From Pseudovibrio exalbescens DSM 16456 (GTDB lineage: Bacteria; Pseudomonadota; Alphaproteobacteria; Rhizobiales; Stappiaceae): 64,000 nucleotides of DNA. The notes under the pieces were generated by a model. It was not told the origin of the DNA. It did not search any database and worked only from the letters and a program-made list of their open reading frames with translations. The stretch is taken from assembly GCF_000422785.1 (NCBI RefSeq), contig NZ_KE383918.1, forward strand, positions 341,748-405,747, given 5' to 3'. Made by a program: the position numbers and the translations under genes. Shown piece by piece: positions 4,233 to 55,738 of the stretch. Position 1 is the stretch's first letter, and each line of letters starts with the position of its first letter.

Positions 4233-7200
4233 ATGCTGCAGGCAAGAGAGTCCACGGTTAGTCTGATCGGCGCCTTTGTGCGCCACAAGAACGCAGCCAA
4301 CCTGCTGATGACCGTGCTCATCCTGTTCGGCGTGTTTGCCCTCGTGAAGCTCAATACCCAATTCTTTCCGACCATCACCACAAGCACGATCACCGTTTCC
4401 ATTTCGTGGCCCGGGTCCAGTGCCGAAGATGTGGAAGCCAACGTGCTGGCCGCCATCGAACCTGAACTGCGCTTTCTTGATAGTCTGGATGAGATAACCT
4501 CTTACGCCCGCGAAGGCGGTGGCACGGTTGTGCTGGATTTTCTGGAAGGTACGGACATGCAGCAGGCCCTGTCCGATACGGAGCAGGCTGTCAGTGCCAT
4601 CACCACCTTGCCAGAAGACGCGGATACCCCGGAAGTCACCTTCGCTGCCTACTATGACAACGTGGCGCGGATTGCGCTGCGCGGCCCATTCTCTGAACAG
4701 GCACTAAAGGTTTTTGCCAAGGACATTCGCGATGATCTCATTGCCCGCGGCATCGACAAGGTGACCATCGAGGGCATGCGCGATGAAGAATACTTGGTGG
4801 AGATCCCAGAAGAACACCTTCGCCGCCTGAATCTCACAGTGGCCGATATTGCCGGCCGCATTCAGGAGAACACCGAGGACGTGCCTGCGGGGAATTTGAC
4901 CGGTGCGGTCGAGCGACAGGTGAGAGCCGTGGCCGATACCACCCAGCCAGAGGACATTGCCGATATCGCGGTGAAGACCTTTGAGAGTGGTGAACAGGTG
5001 CGCATCAATGACATTGGTCAGGTGCGCAAGGCGCTGGATGACGATGACGTGCTCGGGCTTTCGCGAGGTAATCCGGCCATCGAGCTGCGCATCCAGCGTG
5101 CCGAAAACTCCGATACGCTGGTGTCCTCTGCCATCGTCAAGGAGTATCTGGAGGAGATCCGACCCCAACTGCCACAGAGTCTGGAGTTGGTCATGTACAA
5201 CGTCTCGGCGGACAGGGTCGAAGGGCGCATCATGCTGTTGGTCAACAACGGTCTGACTGGGCTGTTCATTGTCGTTGCCGTGCTTTTTCTGTTTCTCAAT
5301 GCCCGCGTCGCGTTCTGGGTTGCCGCCGGAATTCCGGTCGCCATCATGGCGACACTCGGGATCATGTGGGGACTGGGGCAAAGCATCAACATGATCTCGT
5401 GTTTTGCGTTGATCATGATGCTTGGGGTGATCGTTGACGATGCCATTGTGGTGGGGGAACACACCGCAACACTCCACAGTCGAGGCGAGCCGCCAGTGAC
5501 CGCGGCCATACTTGGCGCAAATACCATGTTCTGGCCAATCATAGCGGCGGGTACCACCACCATCGCCGCGTTTGGCCCGATCTTGATGCTTGGGGATGTC
5601 ATGGGACAGATCATGGGCGTCATGCCCATGGTTGTGATTGCGGTGGTGATCGCCAGCCTGCTTGAGTGCTTTTTCGTGTTGCCAGGTCACTTGGCCCACG
5701 CCTTGAACGCCCGCCCGGGATGGAGCTGGTGGCGGGTAATCTTTATCGGTGCCGTTCCCTCTGTTCTGCTGCTCAGCATCGCAACGGCTGATCCGGCTGA
5801 ACTTGGCAATTGGCTTCAGCCATTGGCGCGCGCCGTGGCCGGTCCCACACAAACATTTGGTTTTGTGTTTGATCTGGCTCTGATTTGCGCCTTCTTTGCA
5901 ATTGCACTGGCGATAGAAACGCTATTGCTCAAGCTTCGCCGGCGTCACGCTCTCAGCGGGCGGTCCATCAATGAGCGGGGGCGGTTTCGCGAGGCCTTCG
6001 ACCGCGGCTTTGAGTGGTTCCGGGATCATCCCGTGCATGTGTTCTTGCATGCCACCTTCAAGTACCGCTACATCACGGTTGCTGTAGCAATTTCCACGCT
6101 TATTCTGTCCGTGGGCATGATGCAGGGAGGACGTGTGGGCTTTACGTTCTTCCCCTCGCCGGAATCCGAAAACATCAATGCAAGCATCTACCTGCATTCG
6201 GGGGTGTCAGAGGAAGAAGCGCGCCGCAATATAGGCATCATTGAAGATGCGCTGTATCAAGTGGCCGCTGATCTGTCAGGCGGCGATCCGAACCAGTTGA
6301 TTGAGGCCACGTTTACGACCCTTGGCAAAAACGGGCGCAATCGCGGGGATAACGTAGCGCGCATGGGCGTCCAACTCACATCATCCGAGGTGCGCAGCGT
6401 GCGCACGCCCGAAATCGTCAGCGCTTGGCGGGCTGCCATACCCGATTTGCCGGCACTGTCCCGCCTTGCCATTCAACAAAGCAGGGGCGGCCCTCCCGGC
6501 AAGGATCTCGATGCCCGCCTGACAGGAACCTCTCTGGTTGAACTCAAAGAGGCAGCCGATGAACTTCAGGTAGCGCTCTCCGGCTTTCCGGGGGTTAGCG
6601 GCATCGAGGACGACTTGCCCTACGGCAAGCCCGAGCTTGTTTTGTCTCTGACCGACCGCGGCCGCGCGCTGGGCTTCACAGTGGAAAGCGCGGCCCGACA
6701 GGTGCGCTCCGCCATTGAAGGATCCGTACCGCGGCGTTTTGCAGACGGCGACGAGGAAATCACCATCAAGGTTCGGCAGGCTAAGGACGGTGAGGGCCTA
6801 TCGGGCTTGCGCAATTTGTATCTAAAATCGCCCGCTGGCGAGTTCGTGCCCATGACGGAGGTGGTCTCCTTGCGAGACAAGCAAGGCTACTCTCTGATCC
6901 TTCGCCGCGACGGAAAAATTACGGTGAGTGTCGTGGCCGATGTGGATCCTGAGGTGACAAGCCGGGGAGAGATTACAGCCAAGCTTGCCGAGACCACCAT
7001 GCCAGCTCTGGAGGACCGGTATGGCATTGAGTACACGTTTGGCGGCCGGGCTGAGGAACAGCGCGCGGCGTTTTCGGACCTGTTGCTGGGGGCCGGTGTT
7101 GCCATCGCTTTGATCTACCTGATCCTCGCAGCGGTATTTGCCAGTTACACGAGGCCGTTGGCGGTCATGTCCATCATACCCTTCGGGATTGTGGGCGCGA

Positions 7201-7619
7201 TCATGGGGCACTATTTGCTGGGCTTCAAACTGACTATTCTGAGCATTATCGGCTTGCTGGGAATGGCTGGCATTCTCGTGAATAACTCGATCATTCTGGT
7301 GGCGCGGTTTGAAGATCGGCTTGAAACAGGCGACACCCTTGAAGAGGCAGCTGTCGGCGCGTCCAAAGACCGCTTGCGCGCCATCATCCTGACATCCTGC
7401 ACGACCATCGGCGGGCTGTCGCCGCTCCTGTTTGAAACCAGTGTGCAGGCGCAGTTCCTGATGCCCATGGCCATCACGGTCGTGTTTGGCTTGGCCGCAG
7501 CCACGCTGCTGGTTTTGGTGATTGTGCCAGCGTTGATTGGTATCGGAAACGATGTATCAAGGTTTCTGTCGCTACGCGGTGGGTCTGGTCGCGGTGGTCA
7601 TCCAGAGCCGGCAGAGTAG
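4233..7619 (+). CDS. RND efflux transporter permease (AcrB/HAE-1 type)
   Basis: A 1128-aa proton-driven RND pump. The first transmembrane helix is followed by a large porter-domain loop; a TM2-TM6 block includes MMLGVIVDDAIVVGEH, with the proton-relay acidic pair in TM4. A second half repeats the plan, ending with LLGMAGILVNNSIILVARFEDR. It is longer than AcrB (about 1050 aa) because the linker between TM6 and TM7 (about residues 495-600) holds two extra hydrophobic stretches (about 499-519 and 541-568) that AcrB lacks. It forms a pair with the adaptor at 2780-4153. Export of lipophilic toxic compounds is likely, substrate unknown. Confidence 0.92.
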   Translation: MLQARESTVSLIGAFVRHKNAANLLMTVLILFGVFALVKLNTQFFPTITTSTITVSISWPGSSAEDVEANVLAAIEPELRFLDSLDEITSYAREGGGTVVLDFLEGTDMQQALSDTEQAVSAITTLPEDADTPEVTFAAYYDNVARIALRGPFSEQALKVFAKDIRDDLIARGIDKVTIEGMRDEEYLVEIPEEHLRRLNLTVADIAGRIQENTEDVPAGNLTGAVERQVRAVADTTQPEDIADIAVKTFESGEQVRINDIGQVRKALDDDDVLGLSRGNPAIELRIQRAENSDTLVSSAIVKEYLEEIRPQLPQSLELVMYNVSADRVEGRIMLLVNNGLTGLFIVVAVLFLFLNARVAFWVAAGIPVAIMATLGIMWGLGQSINMISCFALIMMLGVIVDDAIVVGEHTATLHSRGEPPVTAAILGANTMFWPIIAAGTTTIAAFGPILMLGDVMGQIMGVMPMVVIAVVIASLLECFFVLPGHLAHALNARPGWSWWRVIFIGAVPSVLLLSIATADPAELGNWLQPLARAVAGPTQTFGFVFDLALICAFFAIALAIETLLLKLRRRHALSGRSINERGRFREAFDRGFEWFRDHPVHVFLHATFKYRYITVAVAISTLILSVGMMQGGRVGFTFFPSPESENINASIYLHSGVSEEEARRNIGIIEDALYQVAADLSGGDPNQLIEATFTTLGKNGRNRGDNVARMGVQLTSSEVRSVRTPEIVSAWRAAIPDLPALSRLAIQQSRGGPPGKDLDARLTGTSLVELKEAADELQVALSGFPGVSGIEDDLPYGKPELVLSLTDRGRALGFTVESAARQVRSAIEGSVPRRFADGDEEITIKVRQAKDGEGLSGLRNLYLKSPAGEFVPMTEVVSLRDKQGYSLILRRDGKITVSVVADVDPEVTSRGEITAKLAETTMPALEDRYGIEYTFGGRAEEQRAAFSDLLLGAGVAIALIYLILAAVFASYTRPLAVMSIIPFGIVGAIMGHYLLGFKLTILSIIGLLGMAGILVNNSIILVARFEDRLETGDTLEEAAVGASKDRLRAIILTSCTTIGGLSPLLFETSVQAQFLMPMAITVVFGLAAATLLVLVIVPALIGIGNDVSRFLSLRGGSGRGGHPEPAE

Positions 7620-7692
7620 GAAGGCAAGAGGTGCAACATCGCGACCGTTTATAGCCATAAAACGGGGCGAGATTATCGGCATATCAAGCAAA

Positions 7693-7716
7693 AAAGCCCG
7701 GAGTGTGCCGGGCTTT
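7693..7716 (-). terminator. Terminator for the minus-strand hydrolase
   Basis: AAAGCCCGG at 7693-7701 pairs with CCGGGCTTT at 7708-7716 around a 6-base loop. Read on the minus strand the stem is followed by a T run, so it ends the 7746-8399 gene. It may also stop transcription from the RND operon, whose stop is 74 bases to the left. Confidence 0.8.
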
Positions 7717-7745
7717 CAGTAAAGTGCCATGGGGAGGGACAGGCG

Positions 7746-8399
7746 TCACTCCGCTGTCAGGTGCTGGGCAAAATCAGCGACTGCCTTTGCGGCGATCTTG
7801 ATGTTGCCATCCCACGTTGCTGGTGAAGCGCCGCGCGGGGCGAAGTCGTGGTTGCCGTCCTCCAGATATTGAAGAGCGACGTGATCCGGCAGAGTAAGCT
7901 CCGCCAGTTCGGTCTGATTGCCAAATTGGTCGCGGTCGCCTTGCAGCACAAGAACGGGACGCTTGGCCTCTTCCAATGGTGCCAGACGCCAATGCTCAAG
8001 GTCTGGCTTGCCGGTGGGGTGGAAGGGGTAACCCAAACAGGCCACACCAGCGACGCGGCGGGGCAGGGATCCGCTGCCAGCCAGCATGGCGGCAACGCGA
8101 GATCCCATTGACTTGCCGCCGACGATCAGGGCGCCATCGGTTTGTTCGGCCACAGTCTGCACGGCGCGTTGATATTCACCCACCAGCTTGTCCGCGCGTG
8201 GGGGTGGTGTTTTCTTGCCGGTGAGGGCGCGCTTGGCCATATAGTCGAACTCGAACCGTGCGACGGTAAGGCCAACCGCGGCGGCTGCCTGAGCAAACCG
8301 TTCCATGAAATTGGCGTTCATGCCGGCGCCGGCGCCGTGCGCGAAAACAAAGGTGGCGTGTGAGGGGCCTTCAGGCCGTGTCCAGAGAATGTCAGTCAT
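7746..8399 (-). CDS. Alpha/beta hydrolase, KANL3/Tex30-like
   Basis: A 217-aa cytoplasmic alpha/beta-hydrolase fold protein of the KANL3/Tex30 (dienelactone-hydrolase-like) group. The oxyanion segment is FAHGAGAGMN, the nucleophile elbow GGKSMGS (Ser97), the acid probably Asp155 or Asp157 in QGDRDQF, and the catalytic His is 184 in GNHDF. The substrate is unknown; no family member has a firmly known role in bacteria. It is a single gene with its own terminator, divergent from the hydroxylase at 8497. Confidence 0.82.
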   Translation of the reverse strand: MTDILWTRPEGPSHATFVFAHGAGAGMNANFMERFAQAAAAVGLTVARFEFDYMAKRALTGKKTPPPRADKLVGEYQRAVQTVAEQTDGALIVGGKSMGSRVAAMLAGSGSLPRRVAGVACLGYPFHPTGKPDLEHWRLAPLEEAKRPVLVLQGDRDQFGNQTELAELTLPDHVALQYLEDGNHDFAPRGASPATWDGNIKIAAKAVADFAQHLTAE

Positions 8400-8496
8400 G
8401 GCTGCGTTGTAGCTGAAAAATGAAAATTGACTATATGTGAATTGAGCGGATCAGCAGAAAAATCTATCAAGCCCATGGAAAGCGAAGTGGGGACAC

Positions 8497-49343: not shown

Positions 49344-50069
49344 TTAGTCCGCAATCAGTTTGTTCGCGGTAAACGGAAACAAACGCCCGGCCCCCAGAAG
49401 AAACACGGAAAAACGCTTTGCATCGAATATTTGTGACCACGCGGGATCCAGAACGTTCAGTCCCCCGGTCAATGCGCCAAATGAAGGCATGACGAGGCGG
49501 GTGCCATTGGTTGCGAAACAGGGACGCCGGATGCTCCTCCCGAGCTGACGTACCTTTCCCACCGGATGCAAGTGGCCACAGACCTCTCCGGAGGCTGGCC
49601 CTTCGCTTGGTTCATGTTGAAAGCTCAGAGAGCCCAAAGACAGCTTTTCGGTGCGATCCCCGCCGAGGCCCGTTGGAATTTCGGGATCATGGTTGCCTGA
49701 AATCCATACCCAGTCTCTGCCCAGCTGCATGGTGGACAGCATGGCTCGGTATGACACCGGCATCTGTTGAGCGCCCTTCGTGTCGTGAAAGCTGTCTCCC
49801 AGAGCAATGACACGGCGTGGTTTGAATACATCAATCAATGCCGAGAGACGCTCAAGTGTTTCACCGGTATCGTAGGGTGGAAGCATCACACCCCGACGGG
49901 CGAACGAGGCACCCTTTTCCATGTGCAGGTCGGAGACGATTAATGCGCTTTGGTCTGGCCACCACAGCGCTCCGCTGTCGTGAAGGCCGATGATTTCATC
50001 ACCAATCGCCAGATCGTGGCACACAGGAACGGGGGTGCGCCGAATGTTGAGTGCGTGGGCAGTAGTCAC
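49344..50069 (-). CDS. pdeM: Ligase-associated DNA damage response phosphoesterase
   Basis: A 241-aa calcineurin-like metallophosphoesterase. Metal-binding blocks are DLHMEKG, GDSFHD, GNHDPE and GHLHP. It is the PdeM/LDDR endonuclease-type partner of the adjacent helicase, thought to process DNA ends during repair. Its ATG overlaps the helicase stop by 4 bases. Confidence 0.92.
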   Translation of the reverse strand: MTTAHALNIRRTPVPVCHDLAIGDEIIGLHDSGALWWPDQSALIVSDLHMEKGASFARRGVMLPPYDTGETLERLSALIDVFKPRRVIALGDSFHDTKGAQQMPVSYRAMLSTMQLGRDWVWISGNHDPEIPTGLGGDRTEKLSLGSLSFQHEPSEGPASGEVCGHLHPVGKVRQLGRSIRRPCFATNGTRLVMPSFGALTGGLNVLDPAWSQIFDAKRFSVFLLGAGRLFPFTANKLIAD

Positions 50070-52573
50070 GCCATGGCCTCCAGAGCAAGATCGTCCGCAG
50101 CAGATGCGAGCAGAGCTTCGTTTGTTTCGCCATATATCGGTTCGCGGCCAATCTCAAGCAGCACTGGTACAGCTAACGGGGAAACTCGCTGTAAAATCAT
50201 AGGATCGATTCTGCCCTGAATTCGAGAGAGAAATTCCGATAGACGAGAGATATCCAACAGTCCTGTTGCCGCATCGGCCCAGGTGGCTTTCATCAGCAGG
50301 TGGTCCGGCTCATGCGTTCGCAACACGTCATAGACGAGATCCGTGCTCATGGTGACTTGCCGACCGGTTTTTTCCTGACCGGGAAAGCGTCGTTCGATGA
50401 GGCCTGCAATGACGGCACACGCGCGGAAAGTACGTTTCATCAATGCCGATTCCGCGAGCCATGCATCCAGATCATCGCCCAACATGTCCGCATCAAATAG
50501 CGCCCCTAGATCAAGAAGACCCGACTTGGTGGCGGCACCGATATCTTTCATGGACCAGAGCGCGAGCGCATAGTCTGATGCCACAAACCCCATGGGATGC
50601 AGGCCAGCGCGGTCCAGTCGGCGCGTCAGCAACATGCCCAGAGTTTGGTGGGCGAGGCGGCCTTCGAAAGGGTAACACACCATGTAGTGTTTGCGCCCTC
50701 GTGGGAACGTTTCCACCAAAAGCCGATCTGGACGCGGCAATTGTGATTTCAGTTGTTGAAGGCGTAACCATTCGCCAACTTGGGGCGGTAGCCGGTGCCA
50801 GTCGTTCGGTTGGCCCAGCATTGTCCTAACCCGGTCTGCCAGATAGGTTGAAAGAGGAAACTTGCCGCCTTGAAAAGAAGGTACCTTGGGTTCAGTCGCT
50901 GTCGTGCGAGAGACATAGGCTTCGCTCTCCTGCAGGCCCTCAAACCGCAAGATTTCGCCGCTGAATACAAAGGTGTCACCGGGAGCGAGCTGTTCGGCGA
51001 ACCATTCTTCCACTTCGCCCAAAACACGGCCACCGCGCCCAAGTGGTCGGTCGCCCTTGCCCCGGCGAGGCTTGACGAGGCGCACCTTGAGCATGGCATC
51101 GGCGACGATGGTACCGATGTTGAGACGGTATCTTTGAGCAATACTGGGGTGGGCCACACGATATCGACCGTTCTTGGTTTCCCGCAGCCTTGCGAAGCGG
51201 TCGTAGCTGCGCAGGGCGTATCCACCGGTGGCGACGAATTCGAGCGCCTTGTCGAACTGGTCACGGGTAAGCGTGCGGTAGCTGAAGCTTCCTTTGACCT
51301 CAGCAAACAGATCGTCAGCATCAAAGGGCTCGGCGCAAGCCATGCCCATGATGTGCTGGGCAAGCACATCCAGTCCCCCATAACGGAGTGGAGGAGTATC
51401 CTGTTCTCCCGCTGTAGAAGCGGCGAGCGCGGCCTGACACTCCAGCACTTCGAAACGGTTGGCCGGAACGAGAATGGCCTTGGAGGGCTCATCCATGCGG
51501 TGGTTTGCACGTCCAATGCGTTGTGCCAGTCGGCTGGCTCCCTTGGGTGCGCCTACATTGATCACCAGATCGATATCGCCCCAGTCAATGCCCAGATCAA
51601 GCGAGGACGTGCATACCACAGCCTTTAATGCACCGCGCGCCATGGCCTCTTCAACCTTCCGTCGTTGGGCGACATCCAAAGAGCCGTGATGCAGGGCAAT
51701 GGGTAGCGTATCCTCGTTGATCCGCCACAGTTCCTGAAACAACACTTCAGCTTGTGAGCGGGTATTTACAAAAACCAGCGTGGTCTTGTGGGTTCGGATC
51801 TGGTCATAAATATCGTTCAGAGCATAGTGTGCCGAATGTCCGGCCCATGGTAGCCGCTCCGCACTGTCCAGAATGGTTATCTCCGGTTTTACCTGAGTTT
51901 GCGCCAGCACAAGCTCTGCAAGAGCAGGCGTGGTCCCTTCATGACGCTGGTCCATGAGAAATGCGCGCAGTTCATCTGGCTCGGCAACGGTTGCAGAAAG
52001 TCCTATGCATTGCACTTTGGGTGATAGCGTGCGCAGCCGTGTCAGTCCGAGCGATAACAGGTCGCCGCGTTTGGATGTTACCAACTCGTGCAGTTCGTCA
52101 AGAATGATGGTCTGCAGGTTCTCGAACATGGACGCGCTGGCCTTGTCCGCCAGTAGGAGGGCGATTTGTTCTGGTGTTGTCAGCAGAATATCGGGCGGTT
52201 GTCGTTTTTGTCGCTGGCGCTTGTGTGTGGGCGTATCGCCGGTGCGCGTCTCCATCTTGATGGGGAGCTGCATATCCGTTATCGGACGCTCGAGATTGCG
52301 TTGAATATCTGTGGCCAGCGCCTTGAGCGGGGAAATATACAGCGTGTGAACGCCTCTAGGTGCTTCTGGGGTCGCGGCTGGTTGCTGAGATAGACTGATG
52401 AGAGTGGGCAGAAAGCCTGCCAACGTCTTTCCCGCCCCGGTCGGGGCGATCAGCAGCGCTGACTGGCCTGTACGGACCGTGTCCAGCAGGGAAAGCTGAT
52501 GCGATCTGACATGCCAGGATCGAGCATTGAACCAGTCCTCAAATTGCCGGGGTAGCACGCGGTGGGTCTCCAT
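50066..52573 (-). CDS. Ligase-associated DEXH-box helicase (Lhr type)
   Basis: An 835-aa superfamily 2 helicase of the LDDR group. Motif I is APTGAGKTLAGF, motif II DELHEL, motif III SATVAEP and motif VI RIGRANHR, followed by the Lhr-core winged-helix and C-terminal domains. It should unwind DNA with 3'-5' polarity during repair. An in-frame TTG at 52609 would add 12 residues; I prefer ATG 52573. Divergent from the exonuclease gene, with only about 80 bases between. Confidence 0.92.
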   Translation of the reverse strand: METHRVLPRQFEDWFNARSWHVRSHQLSLLDTVRTGQSALLIAPTGAGKTLAGFLPTLISLSQQPAATPEAPRGVHTLYISPLKALATDIQRNLERPITDMQLPIKMETRTGDTPTHKRQRQKRQPPDILLTTPEQIALLLADKASASMFENLQTIILDELHELVTSKRGDLLSLGLTRLRTLSPKVQCIGLSATVAEPDELRAFLMDQRHEGTTPALAELVLAQTQVKPEITILDSAERLPWAGHSAHYALNDIYDQIRTHKTTLVFVNTRSQAEVLFQELWRINEDTLPIALHHGSLDVAQRRKVEEAMARGALKAVVCTSSLDLGIDWGDIDLVINVGAPKGASRLAQRIGRANHRMDEPSKAILVPANRFEVLECQAALAASTAGEQDTPPLRYGGLDVLAQHIMGMACAEPFDADDLFAEVKGSFSYRTLTRDQFDKALEFVATGGYALRSYDRFARLRETKNGRYRVAHPSIAQRYRLNIGTIVADAMLKVRLVKPRRGKGDRPLGRGGRVLGEVEEWFAEQLAPGDTFVFSGEILRFEGLQESEAYVSRTTATEPKVPSFQGGKFPLSTYLADRVRTMLGQPNDWHRLPPQVGEWLRLQQLKSQLPRPDRLLVETFPRGRKHYMVCYPFEGRLAHQTLGMLLTRRLDRAGLHPMGFVASDYALALWSMKDIGAATKSGLLDLGALFDADMLGDDLDAWLAESALMKRTFRACAVIAGLIERRFPGQEKTGRQVTMSTDLVYDVLRTHEPDHLLMKATWADAATGLLDISRLSEFLSRIQGRIDPMILQRVSPLAVPVLLEIGREPIYGETNEALLASAADDLALEAMA

Positions 52574-52654
52574 TGCCTTTGAGTCGCTTCGACTTATAGT
52601 AGGGCGCAAACTGCAATGCTACGACCCGCCAGAACGCAATCAAAGGAGAACCGT

Positions 52655-53659
52655 GTGGGGTTGAGTTTTCTGGCACCTGTTCGTGCCATTTTGGAAAACA
52701 GGCGTGAAGGCCTCTATTGCATACCCGGTGACTTTTATGTCGATCCTGTCCGGCGCGTGCCGCGTGCGATCATCACACACGGTCATGCCGATCACGCTCG
52801 TACAGGTCACGAAACTGTTTTGGCGACACCTCAAACCATCGCCATCATGCAGGCGCGTAGTGGACGAAACTGTGCCGGCCGTTTCGAGCCACTGGACTAC
52901 GGCAAGCCGCTCTGCATCAATGATGTTACCGTGACCCTGCGTCCAGCGGGCCACGTGCTCGGCTCTGCTCAGGTTGTCATGGAGTACAAAGGATATCGCA
53001 TTGTCGCGCCGGGCGATTTCAAGCGGTCTCCCGATCCGACGTGCGCGCCTTTTGAGCCGGTTTCCTGTCATTGTTTTATTACGGAGGCCACCTTTGGCCT
53101 CCCCCTGTTTCAGTTGCCGCCCGTTGAGGATGAACTTGCCAAGTTGATGCAGTCGTTACGGCTTTTTCCTCAATGCACTCATGTTCTGCTTGCCTATTCT
53201 CTGGGCAAAGCACAGCAGCTCATTGCCTTATTGCGCCGGCAAGGGCTGGTCGATCCGATTCTGGTTCATCCAAGTGTCTGGGATGTTTGCCAAGTCTATG
53301 AGGCATTCGGCGTTGCGATGGGCGTGTTGGAAAAACTGCCACAGAACCCGTCGCGAGAAAAGAACATGCGGGGCATTGCCGTCATGCCGCCGGGGCGCGG
53401 TTCAACAGGTTTGGTGGAGCTGTTTGGCAACCACCGTACGGTTGGAGCGTCTGGCTGGCTGCATACCTCTAAAGGCAGAAAGCAGCGTACCTGCGATTTG
53501 CCGCTCGTCATATCGGATCATGCGGATTGGCTGGAGTTGTTGCGCACCATTGAAGAGACTCACGCTGAAACCGTTTTGGTAACGCACGGTCCTGATGCTG
53601 CGCTGAAGCGGGCATTGCACGGCGGACCTGTGAATTGTGCGGGACTGACAGAACTTTAG
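52655..53659 (+). CDS. Ligase-associated beta-CASP exonuclease
   Basis: A 334-aa metallo-beta-lactamase/beta-CASP nuclease of the LDDR group. Motif II is THGHADHARTGH, motif III includes AGHVLGSAQ, motif IV GDFKRSP. The C-terminal motif is ISDHADWLELL, and the beta-CASP domain is in between. GTG 52655 is chosen because AAAGGAG lies 6 bases upstream. It trims DNA ends in the same repair route as the helicase. Confidence 0.9.
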   Translation: MGLSFLAPVRAILENRREGLYCIPGDFYVDPVRRVPRAIITHGHADHARTGHETVLATPQTIAIMQARSGRNCAGRFEPLDYGKPLCINDVTVTLRPAGHVLGSAQVVMEYKGYRIVAPGDFKRSPDPTCAPFEPVSCHCFITEATFGLPLFQLPPVEDELAKLMQSLRLFPQCTHVLLAYSLGKAQQLIALLRRQGLVDPILVHPSVWDVCQVYEAFGVAMGVLEKLPQNPSREKNMRGIAVMPPGRGSTGLVELFGNHRTVGASGWLHTSKGRKQRTCDLPLVISDHADWLELLRTIEETHAETVLVTHGPDAALKRALHGGPVNCAGLTEL

Positions 53660-53798: not shown

Positions 53799-54191
53799 AT
53801 GAATGAAGAGAGCGACGTAGAGCTGCAGCTATCTGAGCTTTTTGATAGGTACGCTGACGGCTACGACGACTATGACGTGGCGGCCATTGCTGATTGCTTC
53901 GCCTTTCCCTGTGTGGTCTGGCAGATGGATCAGGGGCATGTTTTCGCGGATCAGGAAGAACTGGTCGAAAACCTTGAAGCCTTGCTCGACGTGCATCGAG
54001 AAAACAACGTCACTCAATCCACTTACGAGGTGATTTCCACGCACGTATCTGGATGTACTGCCCACATTACATTGGACTGGCAGCAGGAAGATGATGCTGG
54101 TGATGTCGTGTTTGACTTCACTTGCCACTACACCATCGTTCAGATTGACGAGAATTGGCGCATCACGATGATCGTGAACGAGCCAGCCTGA
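53799..54191 (+). CDS. NTF2-like (SnoaL-fold) protein
   Basis: A 130-aa acidic protein with the NTF2/SnoaL alpha+beta cone fold: a first helix pair with RYADGYDDYDVAAIADCFAFP, then strands ending in HYTIVQIDENWRITMIV. Such domains bind small ligands or act as minor enzymes; nothing indicates which. It sits between the exonuclease and the ligase-like gene, an unusual place, since those two normally touch. Confidence 0.75.
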   Translation: MNEESDVELQLSELFDRYADGYDDYDVAAIADCFAFPCVVWQMDQGHVFADQEELVENLEALLDVHRENNVTQSTYEVISTHVSGCTAHITLDWQQEDDAGDVVFDFTCHYTIVQIDENWRITMIVNEPA

Positions 54192-54226: not shown

Positions 54227-55738
54227 GTGAAGGCGTTTTCCCAGTTGTGCGAAGCGATTGCCTGCGATGCCTCGGAGAACCGCCAGAGCGCCTACCTCAA
54301 AGTGTTTCTGGAACAGAGCAATGCGCGAAATGCTGCCTATGCGCTTGCGTTGGTAACCGGATCTTTCAAGGTTCGGCCTGCGCTCACACCTGCTTTGATC
54401 AATCAACTGGCAGACTGCACGTTAGATACCGCACTGTTCGATCTCAGCGTTGAGTTTACCGGCGACAAGACTGAGGCGGTTGCGTTGATGTGGCCGCATG
54501 CCAAGAGCGAGGCTTGCGCGCCTGATCTTGCGGATCTGGTTGAGGATTGGCAATCCACGGCAAAAGCTGATCGTCTATCCTATCTGCAGAAAGCGATGGA
54601 TACCATGCCGGCAACGCTCCGCCCGCTGGCATTGAAGGTGCTTCGAAGTGCCCGTTTGCAGTTGCTGTCCGCCCCATTGGTCTGGAAGACGTTGGCGGAA
54701 GTTTTTAATCAACCGCAAGAGCTGATCGCCCAAGTCTGGCAGGAGAGTGGCATGCCTCCTGAGGATCTGATGAACTGGCTGATGGAGGGAGGTTCTTGTC
54801 CGCTCAAAGGCCATGTTTTTGCTGTCGGGCCCGACGCACCATGGCAAGTTTTGACACCAGACGAAATTCTCACTCATAAAGAAAAGAGGATATGGTATCG
54901 GCCTGTTCCCGTCGGATTTTATTGCCGTTTGCTCAAAGGCGCGTTTAGAAATGAGCGGCACTGCACTGATGAATTTCAAGATCTGGACGGTACGCGGCTT
55001 CTGGTAATGGAGCGGCCGGAGTTTACAGCGCACTTGAGCGAAGGCGCGTATCATGGTGTGTTGACAGCAAGACAAGGTTCCGTCACCTGCTCAGGAGCTC
55101 ACATCCGTCAATTGCTTGACCGCAAGAAGCCGCCTGACGTCTCGTGGGGCTTTGTCCCGCTGTGGTCAACCCGTGCGCCTGAGGAGGAGGCGTTAAAGGC
55201 CCTCGGATATTCTCGGGAGGTTTTGCATAGGAGCATTTTGCCCTCCAACTGGCATAATTCCGGCCTGCAAGCAGTAGCGCTGCACGCGCCGTGTCATCCG
55301 GATCAACAAGAGTATGAGCAGGCAATATGGGTAAGCCGGCCGCCCTATGAAGTTATGGCCCAGGTCATGCACGCACGGTTTAGTGCAGGGTTAAAGACGC
55401 CCGGCCCGGTGGAGTTATCCTTCGGCATGCCTGCCACGCAACAGATGGACAGTCCTCTGGTGCCTATTGGCAAAGCTCGGCTGGATGGTGACAGGAGCGC
55501 GTTTGAAGCCGTGTCGCTGGCCTTTTCTACGCATACGCTGGCTCGCTTCGGTCCGCTTCGAGAATTGCGCCAGCTTCCGGAAACACGTCTTGTCTTTCGT
55601 TTGGCATTTGCGGAGGTTCTTTCGGCTCCAAGACGCAAGTCAGGAATTCAATTGACCGAGTTGCGTATCCTGAAGTTCGAACCGGATGGGATGCCAACGT
55701 CTCTGGACGACTTGAGGCAAGACGTGCGTGCGCCCTAA
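54227..55738 (+). CDS. Degenerate LDDR-type ATP-dependent DNA ligase homologue (pseudo-ligase)
   Basis: A 503-aa protein. The N-terminal DNA-binding domain resembles LDDR ligases (AYALALVTGSFKV, EFTGDKTEAVALMWP, PLALKVLRSARLQLLSAPL). The C-terminal OB region also fits (SPLVPIGKAR at 409, ARFGPLREL, LVFRLAFAEVL, PRRKSGIQL). Between them the catalytic domain is out of consensus. Where ligases have EWKWDGIR with the AMP-accepting Lys, this protein reads IWYRPVPVGF (222-231, 54890-54919). The DGE block is HGV, and the EG-x-x-x-K and KWK blocks are absent. RQLLDRKKPP keeps the shape of the LQQRLNRK helix. It cannot be a standard ligase; a DNA-binding scaffold is likely. GTG start after AAAGG. Confidence 0.78.
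   Translation: MKAFSQLCEAIACDASENRQSAYLKVFLEQSNARNAAYALALVTGSFKVRPALTPALINQLADCTLDTALFDLSVEFTGDKTEAVALMWPHAKSEACAPDLADLVEDWQSTAKADRLSYLQKAMDTMPATLRPLALKVLRSARLQLLSAPLVWKTLAEVFNQPQELIAQVWQESGMPPEDLMNWLMEGGSCPLKGHVFAVGPDAPWQVLTPDEILTHKEKRIWYRPVPVGFYCRLLKGAFRNERHCTDEFQDLDGTRLLVMERPEFTAHLSEGAYHGVLTARQGSVTCSGAHIRQLLDRKKPPDVSWGFVPLWSTRAPEEEALKALGYSREVLHRSILPSNWHNSGLQAVALHAPCHPDQQEYEQAIWVSRPPYEVMAQVMHARFSAGLKTPGPVELSFGMPATQQMDSPLVPIGKARLDGDRSAFEAVSLAFSTHTLARFGPLRELRQLPETRLVFRLAFAEVLSAPRRKSGIQLTELRILKFEPDGMPTSLDDLRQDVRAP

Follow-up and report, generated by a model that had tools for sequence, protein, structure and literature searches.

We identified, in a 64,000-nucleotide stretch of Pseudovibrio DNA (hereafter the window), a gene for a 503-residue homologue of the ATP-dependent DNA ligase of the LDDR repair set (54227-55738, plus strand). 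As judged from its sequence, it is an in-place descendant of an LDDR (LigB-type) ligase and has no recognisable ligase active site. An uninterrupted gene of this kind was present in four Pseudovibrio species of three lineages, and this dead ligase is very probably kept by selection. That an unbroken dead ligase lies beside an intact-looking nuclease suggests a second job besides DNA joining. Our preferred reading, to which we give a probability of about 0.5, is that the role kept is that of a partner of the neighbouring LDDR exonuclease.

The open reading frame starts with GTG, contains 503 codons without an internal stop and ends with its stop codon at 55738. Against TIGR04120, the profile of the cisplatin damage response ligase, the protein scored 130.9 bits in total (cut-off 400); the best stretch paired window residues 2-192 with profile positions 1-193, and one further stretch was matched. 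No Pfam family was detected at E up to 1, including the DNA_ligase_A_M domain (PF01068). When all three domain types of an LDDR ligase were sought, both end domains were found and the middle one was not recognisable. The N-terminal DNA-binding-type domain (residues 1-190; 54227-54796, plus strand) was delimited by TIGR04120 positions 1-193, hhalign and model confidence (pLDDT by block 68-94). It is followed on the same strand by an eroded adenylation (nucleotidyltransferase) region (residues 191-372; 54797-55342), recognised by hhalign, pLDDT and invariant positions, and by a C-terminal OB-fold domain (residues 373-503 with the stop codon; 55343-55738), defined by hhalign, with pLDDT by block mostly 74-89 and lowest values of 53 and 60. 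The original prediction, made from this DNA alone, had placed IWYRPVPVGF at residues 222-231, and our alignment puts this segment (54890-54919, plus strand) at the position of motif I, where intact ligases contain EWKWDGIRVQ. It had also stated that both ends align with LDDR ligases and that the flanking alignment is continuous; the ends do align, but the approximately 175 residues between them are not detectably related to an intact adenylation domain.

Comparison of the four Pseudovibrio proteins with intact ligases by hhalign gave strong matches for the N-terminal domains (E 3.7e-32) and the C-terminal domains (E 3.4e-21). The middle domain of all four together gave a weak match (E 6.5e-5, probability 64%). 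It was clear for P. flavus and P. hongkongensis (E 9.3e-9, probability 95.7%) and undetectable for the window protein and P. exalbescens (probability 0.9%), so that erosion of this domain is graded. An AlphaFold model of the window protein was fairly confident for the N-terminal part (1-190) and the OB domain (373-500), with pLDDT below 50 for residues 194-372 (mean 65.8, pTM 0.42). The P. flavus protein presented the same picture (low stretch 188-394, mean 59.2). The input consisted of six sequences, and such a shallow alignment may account for part of the low confidence in the middle. Foldseek returned 51 matches to the window model at E up to 0.001, and each of the 50 listed was either an ATP-dependent DNA ligase or an NHEJ complex containing ligase IV. 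Over the whole chain, TM-scores were low, at 0.23-0.36 when normalised by query length, and the rmsd was about 20; this indicates kinship of domains and not of the whole arrangement. Because the window protein, as a single query against the PDB, produced one match that was unrelated (E 0.43), structural kinship rests on the model and on a six-row profile, among whose rows are an intact ligase and the planctomycete protein described below. Chance similarity to ligases was ruled out by the profiles and the fold.

As the original prediction had claimed for the window protein, the catalytic blocks are replaced. In an alignment with 31 distinct intact ligases, motif I (KxDG), the DGE motif, the lysine of EGLMLKR, the KWK motif and the terminal RxRWDK were changed in all four Pseudovibrio proteins. 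A K-x-D-G displaced to another place, for which inspection of a predicted structure had been proposed, was absent from the window translation and from the three relatives. Outside the genus, KxDG within EWKWDG was kept in 36 of 36 ligase rows (31 distinct), a control set that omits the P. flavus locus (L008), itself one of the four dead copies. KxDG was also kept in all 80 ligases examined from other families of the order, two of which were shared with the first set; together the two sets comprise 109 distinct ligases, all with the motif. The 80 controls were picked from places listed for matches in 244 of 397 genomes, and weaker, unlisted matches, which may include dead ligases, lie outside this set. 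Retention was also counted at positions that were the same in at least 95% of the 31 intact ligases: the window protein kept 24 of 47 in the N-terminal domain, 10 of 53 in the middle domain and 27 of 66 in the C-terminal domain.

Several positions that we take to be DNA and nucleotide contacts of the ligase were changed as well. Numbered as in the intact ligase of locus L072, these positions, all lost in the four Pseudovibrio proteins, are R149 and G151 in the N-terminal domain and, at the OB end, R512, P514, R518, R520 and K523; R518 was present in 79 of the 80 intact ligases and the other six were invariant in all 80. G481, P482, R484, R504 and K506, among others, were kept. Net charge per domain was within or below the range of intact ligases, with no domain more basic. 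Two motifs stood out in the OB domain. RFGPLREL (R440-L447; 55544-55567, plus strand) is a retained motif, with R440 and G442-L447 invariant across the four Pseudovibrio proteins. APRRKSG (467-473; 55625-55645, plus strand) is an altered motif that replaces the S-x-R-H-[KR] of intact ligases: APRRK was common to the four Pseudovibrio proteins, and the S and H at these places were unchanged in 80 of 80 intact ligases.

Dead copies were detected in 4 of 16 Pseudovibrio genomes (the window, P. exalbescens, P. flavus and P. hongkongensis). The proteins (503, 488, 527 and 540 residues) were all uninterrupted and 25-39% mutually identical. The three relatives were identified by a four-row profile search of named genomes; genome contigs yielded no relative when scanned with the window protein as the sole query. 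In a tree built from the LigA sequences of all 16 genomes, the window adjoined P. exalbescens (support 100/99) and the crown clade was well supported (100/99), with a weak deepest fork (41/9). That the frame is uninterrupted and does not reflect a simple frameshift, as originally proposed, was borne out: no relative was decayed with stops, and a frameshift or sequencing error was ruled out by the four uninterrupted copies. In addition, a purine-rich, ribosome-binding-type sequence was present upstream of the start codon in all four.

The claim that selection keeps the gene in the LDDR set also appears to hold. When the window gene was evolved neutrally to 39% identity, a mean of 10.2 stops per copy accumulated, and none of 500 runs was stop-free in both copies. 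Differences between the window and P. exalbescens genes were most frequent at third codon positions, with values at positions 1/2/3 of 0.50/0.41/0.70 overall, 0.49/0.33/0.67 in the N-terminal domain, 0.57/0.53/0.73 in the middle domain and 0.42/0.39/0.70 in the C-terminal domain. Coding constraint was therefore weakest in the middle domain, and alignment choice inflates it somewhat. Synonymous divergence of the dead ligase gene is saturated, which places dN/dS and the strength of selection beyond reach. Uninterrupted frames and coding constraint in several lineages, which a pseudoenzyme under selection should present, were both observed. The protein also diverges very fast: intact ligases were 70% identical (62-76%, n=19) in pairs whose helicases were 78-86% identical, whereas window and P. 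exalbescens had helicases at 81% and pseudo-ligases at 40%. This comparison used 66 of 91 intact pairs, the others being dropped because the helicase gene was missing or cut.

The neighbourhood typical of an LDDR ligase, composed of an Lhr helicase, PdeM and an MBL-fold exonuclease, was found at the window locus. The LDDR phosphoesterase/endonuclease PdeM (49344-50069, minus strand; TIGR04123, 230.3 bits, cut-off 150) and the Lhr-core DEXH helicase (50066-52609, minus strand; TIGR04121, 1131 bits, cut-off 850) are followed by the LDDR exonuclease (52616-53659, plus strand), which looks intact (TIGR04122, 373.3 bits, cut-off 325; HGHADH). An NTF2/SnoaL-like gene (53799-54191, plus strand; Pfam DUF4440 and SnoaL_4 over cut-off) lies between the exonuclease and the ligase homologue. 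All 14 intact loci that were read had the order exonuclease-NTF2-ligase, as did the four dead-ligase loci. The full arrangement, PdeM-Lhr/exonuclease-NTF2-ligase-DsbA, occurred in 8 of the 14 intact loci and in the carriers, which indicates that the dead gene occupies its ancestral position. In all four carriers the exonuclease kept H-x-HADH and 102-106 of the 146 positions invariant in the 14 genomes with intact loci.

Evolution of the exonuclease itself was accelerated in Pseudovibrio compared with relatives whose ligase is intact, with H-x-HADH still kept. Its identity between the window and P. flavus was 0.50 at a helicase identity of 0.72, compared with 0.63-0.77 in the corresponding bin (42 intact pairs, helicase identity 0.72-0.78); exonuclease pairs that differed greatly in length had been dropped.

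Distribution of the set was assessed across the 16 Pseudovibrio genomes, several of which are drafts. TIGR04120 matched in four genomes and exceeded its cut-off in none; the exonuclease was over cut-off in the same four, and both genes were not found in the other 12. The helicase and PdeM were over cut-off in the same 14 genomes. Elsewhere in the family the intact ligase is common: 65 of 87 genomes had a ligase over the TIGR04120 cut-off, none of them Pseudovibrio, corresponding to 65 of 71 in the rest of the family. Ten crown Pseudovibrio species had the helicase and PdeM and lacked the exonuclease and the ligase-like gene, a separation that probably represents one lineage event. In the five of these loci that were read (G005, G007, G009, G010 and G014), the NTF2 gene and DsbA were in place. 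Persistence of the NTF2 gene between the missing pair implies two deletions or a rearrangement, not one simple deletion. Two genomes (G001 and G011) had no helicase, PdeM, exonuclease or ligase over cut-off, that is, they lacked the whole LDDR set, and are thus uninformative about the exonuclease/ligase pair. Retention of the NTF2/SnoaL-like gene in the five crown loci without both of its neighbours makes it a possible extra companion of the cluster.

The original prediction had assigned sealing to another ligase. NAD+-dependent LigA, present in 16 of 16 Pseudovibrio genomes, is available for this role and may well perform it; PF01068 was over cut-off in 0 of 16, with one sub-threshold match (E 0.55) and none in the window's own genome. 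A search of the genome for an additional LDDR ligase, one still active, found none.

A further ligase homologue with a changed active site was detected in a Planctomycetaceae MAG, UBA11682 (locus L073). At 5737-8468 of this locus, an LDDR exonuclease (TIGR04122, 397.9 bits) overlaps a ligase homologue of 542 residues (6840-8468) with NWVG in place of KWDG; the overlap is 1 base for an ATG start or 4 bases for a GTG start. DGI replaces DGE, KWK is absent and CDE replaces WDK. These several separate substitutions make sequencing error unlikely. The locus was returned by the four-row profile and confirmed by tblastn on its C-terminal segment, and the C-terminal motif that it shares with the Pseudovibrio proteins therefore partly reflects how it was found. 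Like the window protein, the homologue has an LDDR-exonuclease neighbour, has lost the catalytic Lys, Asp and Glu, and carries related OB motifs (APRRRSG and GPVREL, against APRRK and GPLREL in the Pseudovibrio copies). It differs in belonging to another phylum and in an adenylation domain that is still recognised (PF01068, 45.6 bits, cut-off 26.2; TIGR04120, 183.2 bits), and it retains R149 and K389, which the Pseudovibrio copies do not. The gene presumably represents a separate loss. The APRR likeness may be convergence or may be native to the planctomycete lineage, the 80 intact reference ligases coming from other families of the order.

We propose that the pseudo-ligase would act as a non-catalytic partner, either a scaffold or a regulatory subunit, of the neighbouring LDDR exonuclease. 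Docking surfaces would persist on its end domains, those of the OB domain containing GPLREL and APRRK, and would hold the exonuclease on damaged DNA or position it there. The adenylation region, no longer needed, would have turned variable, and nicks left after processing would be sealed by LigA. An LDDR ligase would then also hold or control the exonuclease, a role that could have outlived catalysis. The physical partnership with the exonuclease, which we infer from co-occurrence and gene neighbourhood, and sealing by LigA are both predictions. This proposal is favoured by the loss of all catalytic motifs in four of four proteins, set against KxDG throughout the controls outside the genus, and by the second dead copy, whose gene overlaps that of its exonuclease. 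It is also supported by the shared gene order, the signs of selection, the homology of the end domains, the joint presence or absence of exonuclease and ligase-like gene across the genus, the conserved residues of the exonuclease and the reported exonuclease-ligase fusions. Points against it are the fast pseudo-ligase together with an accelerated exonuclease, as expected of a module losing importance, and the crown species without both genes and two species without the whole set, which show that the function is dispensable; in addition, the crown loss is probably one event, dS is saturated and whole-chain TM-scores are low. A broader view, that LDDR ligases have two jobs, of which sealing was dropped and holding kept in at least two phyla (Pseudomonadota and Planctomycetota), with OB domains converging by S to A, H to R and V to L changes on APRR[KR] and GPxREL, is tentative, and we lean against it.

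The original prediction had favoured a DNA-binding scaffold or end-protector. Its core, a ligase-derived protein without catalysis, is retained in our proposal; its DNA-binding part is weakened. Ligases clamp DNA with their end domains, which here could grip nicked or broken DNA, leave it unsealed and either pass it to LigA or shield it. The fold matches listed, all to ligases or complexes holding one, and the conserved R484, R504 and K506 of the OB domain are consistent with such a clamp. However, the seven presumed contact residues that nearly every intact ligase has were lost in all four proteins, and in no domain did net charge exceed the range of intact ligases, which makes this role rather unlikely. 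The surviving OB features and co-loss with the exonuclease fit a partner role better. We also consider it unlikely that the gene is a slowly decaying remnant, with catalysis lost in the Pseudovibrio ancestor and drift towards a loss that was completed in the crown clade. Such decay would agree with the fast divergence, the graded erosion of the middle domain, the failure to find the gene in 12 of the 16 genomes and the acceleration of the exonuclease, but four uninterrupted copies when no neutral run stayed stop-free, end domains still detectable by profiles and the ribosome-binding-type sequence before every start codon speak against it. A nucleotidyltransferase or ligase still active through a moved active site is very improbable: the middle domains of P. 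flavus and P. hongkongensis are still related to the intact one, but every catalytic motif position is changed in all four proteins, none contains KxDG, and the middle of the window and P. exalbescens proteins has no detectable relation to an intact domain.

Among known systems, the TIGR04120 ligase resembles the window protein in locus position, end domains, length class and neighbours; the window protein differs in its profile score, far below cut-off, and in the loss of catalytic motifs and of a recognisable adenylation domain. Exonuclease-ligase fusions from Opitutus terrae and an Antarctic metagenome, as well as the operon, are described in PMC10140301. The same two families as in Pseudovibrio are there physically joined; unlike the pseudoenzyme, the ligase part of the Antarctic fusion is reported to be active when expressed apart from the nuclease. 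The same paper describes the role of the pathway and its target damage as not known. In NHEJ, PMC10858965 and PMC11754673 describe a structural role of Lig4 in the repair complex while another ligase seals. The inactive Lig4 of these studies is an engineered catalytic point mutant in eukaryotes, whereas the Pseudovibrio loss is natural, affects a whole domain and involves no NHEJ complex. Our searches of open-licence papers listed no report of a natural DNA pseudo-ligase or dead LDDR ligase, in agreement with the earlier statement that no pseudo-ligase had been described in this locus. If real, the Pseudovibrio protein would be a natural separation-of-function variant of the LDDR repair pathway and would imply a non-catalytic task of the ligase, with exonuclease binding predicted; together with an intact ligase of the same family, it would provide an experimental pair for finding that task.

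Scans were extended to mobile elements and viruses. A phage scan gave no match, and viral contigs scanned with the planctomycete protein contained no relative. Plasmid scans gave matches in 74 and 75 records, three of which were read: the ligases on plasmids of Comamonas and Paroceanicella were intact, and a Shinella plasmid stretch contained a 596-residue open frame with KWDG.
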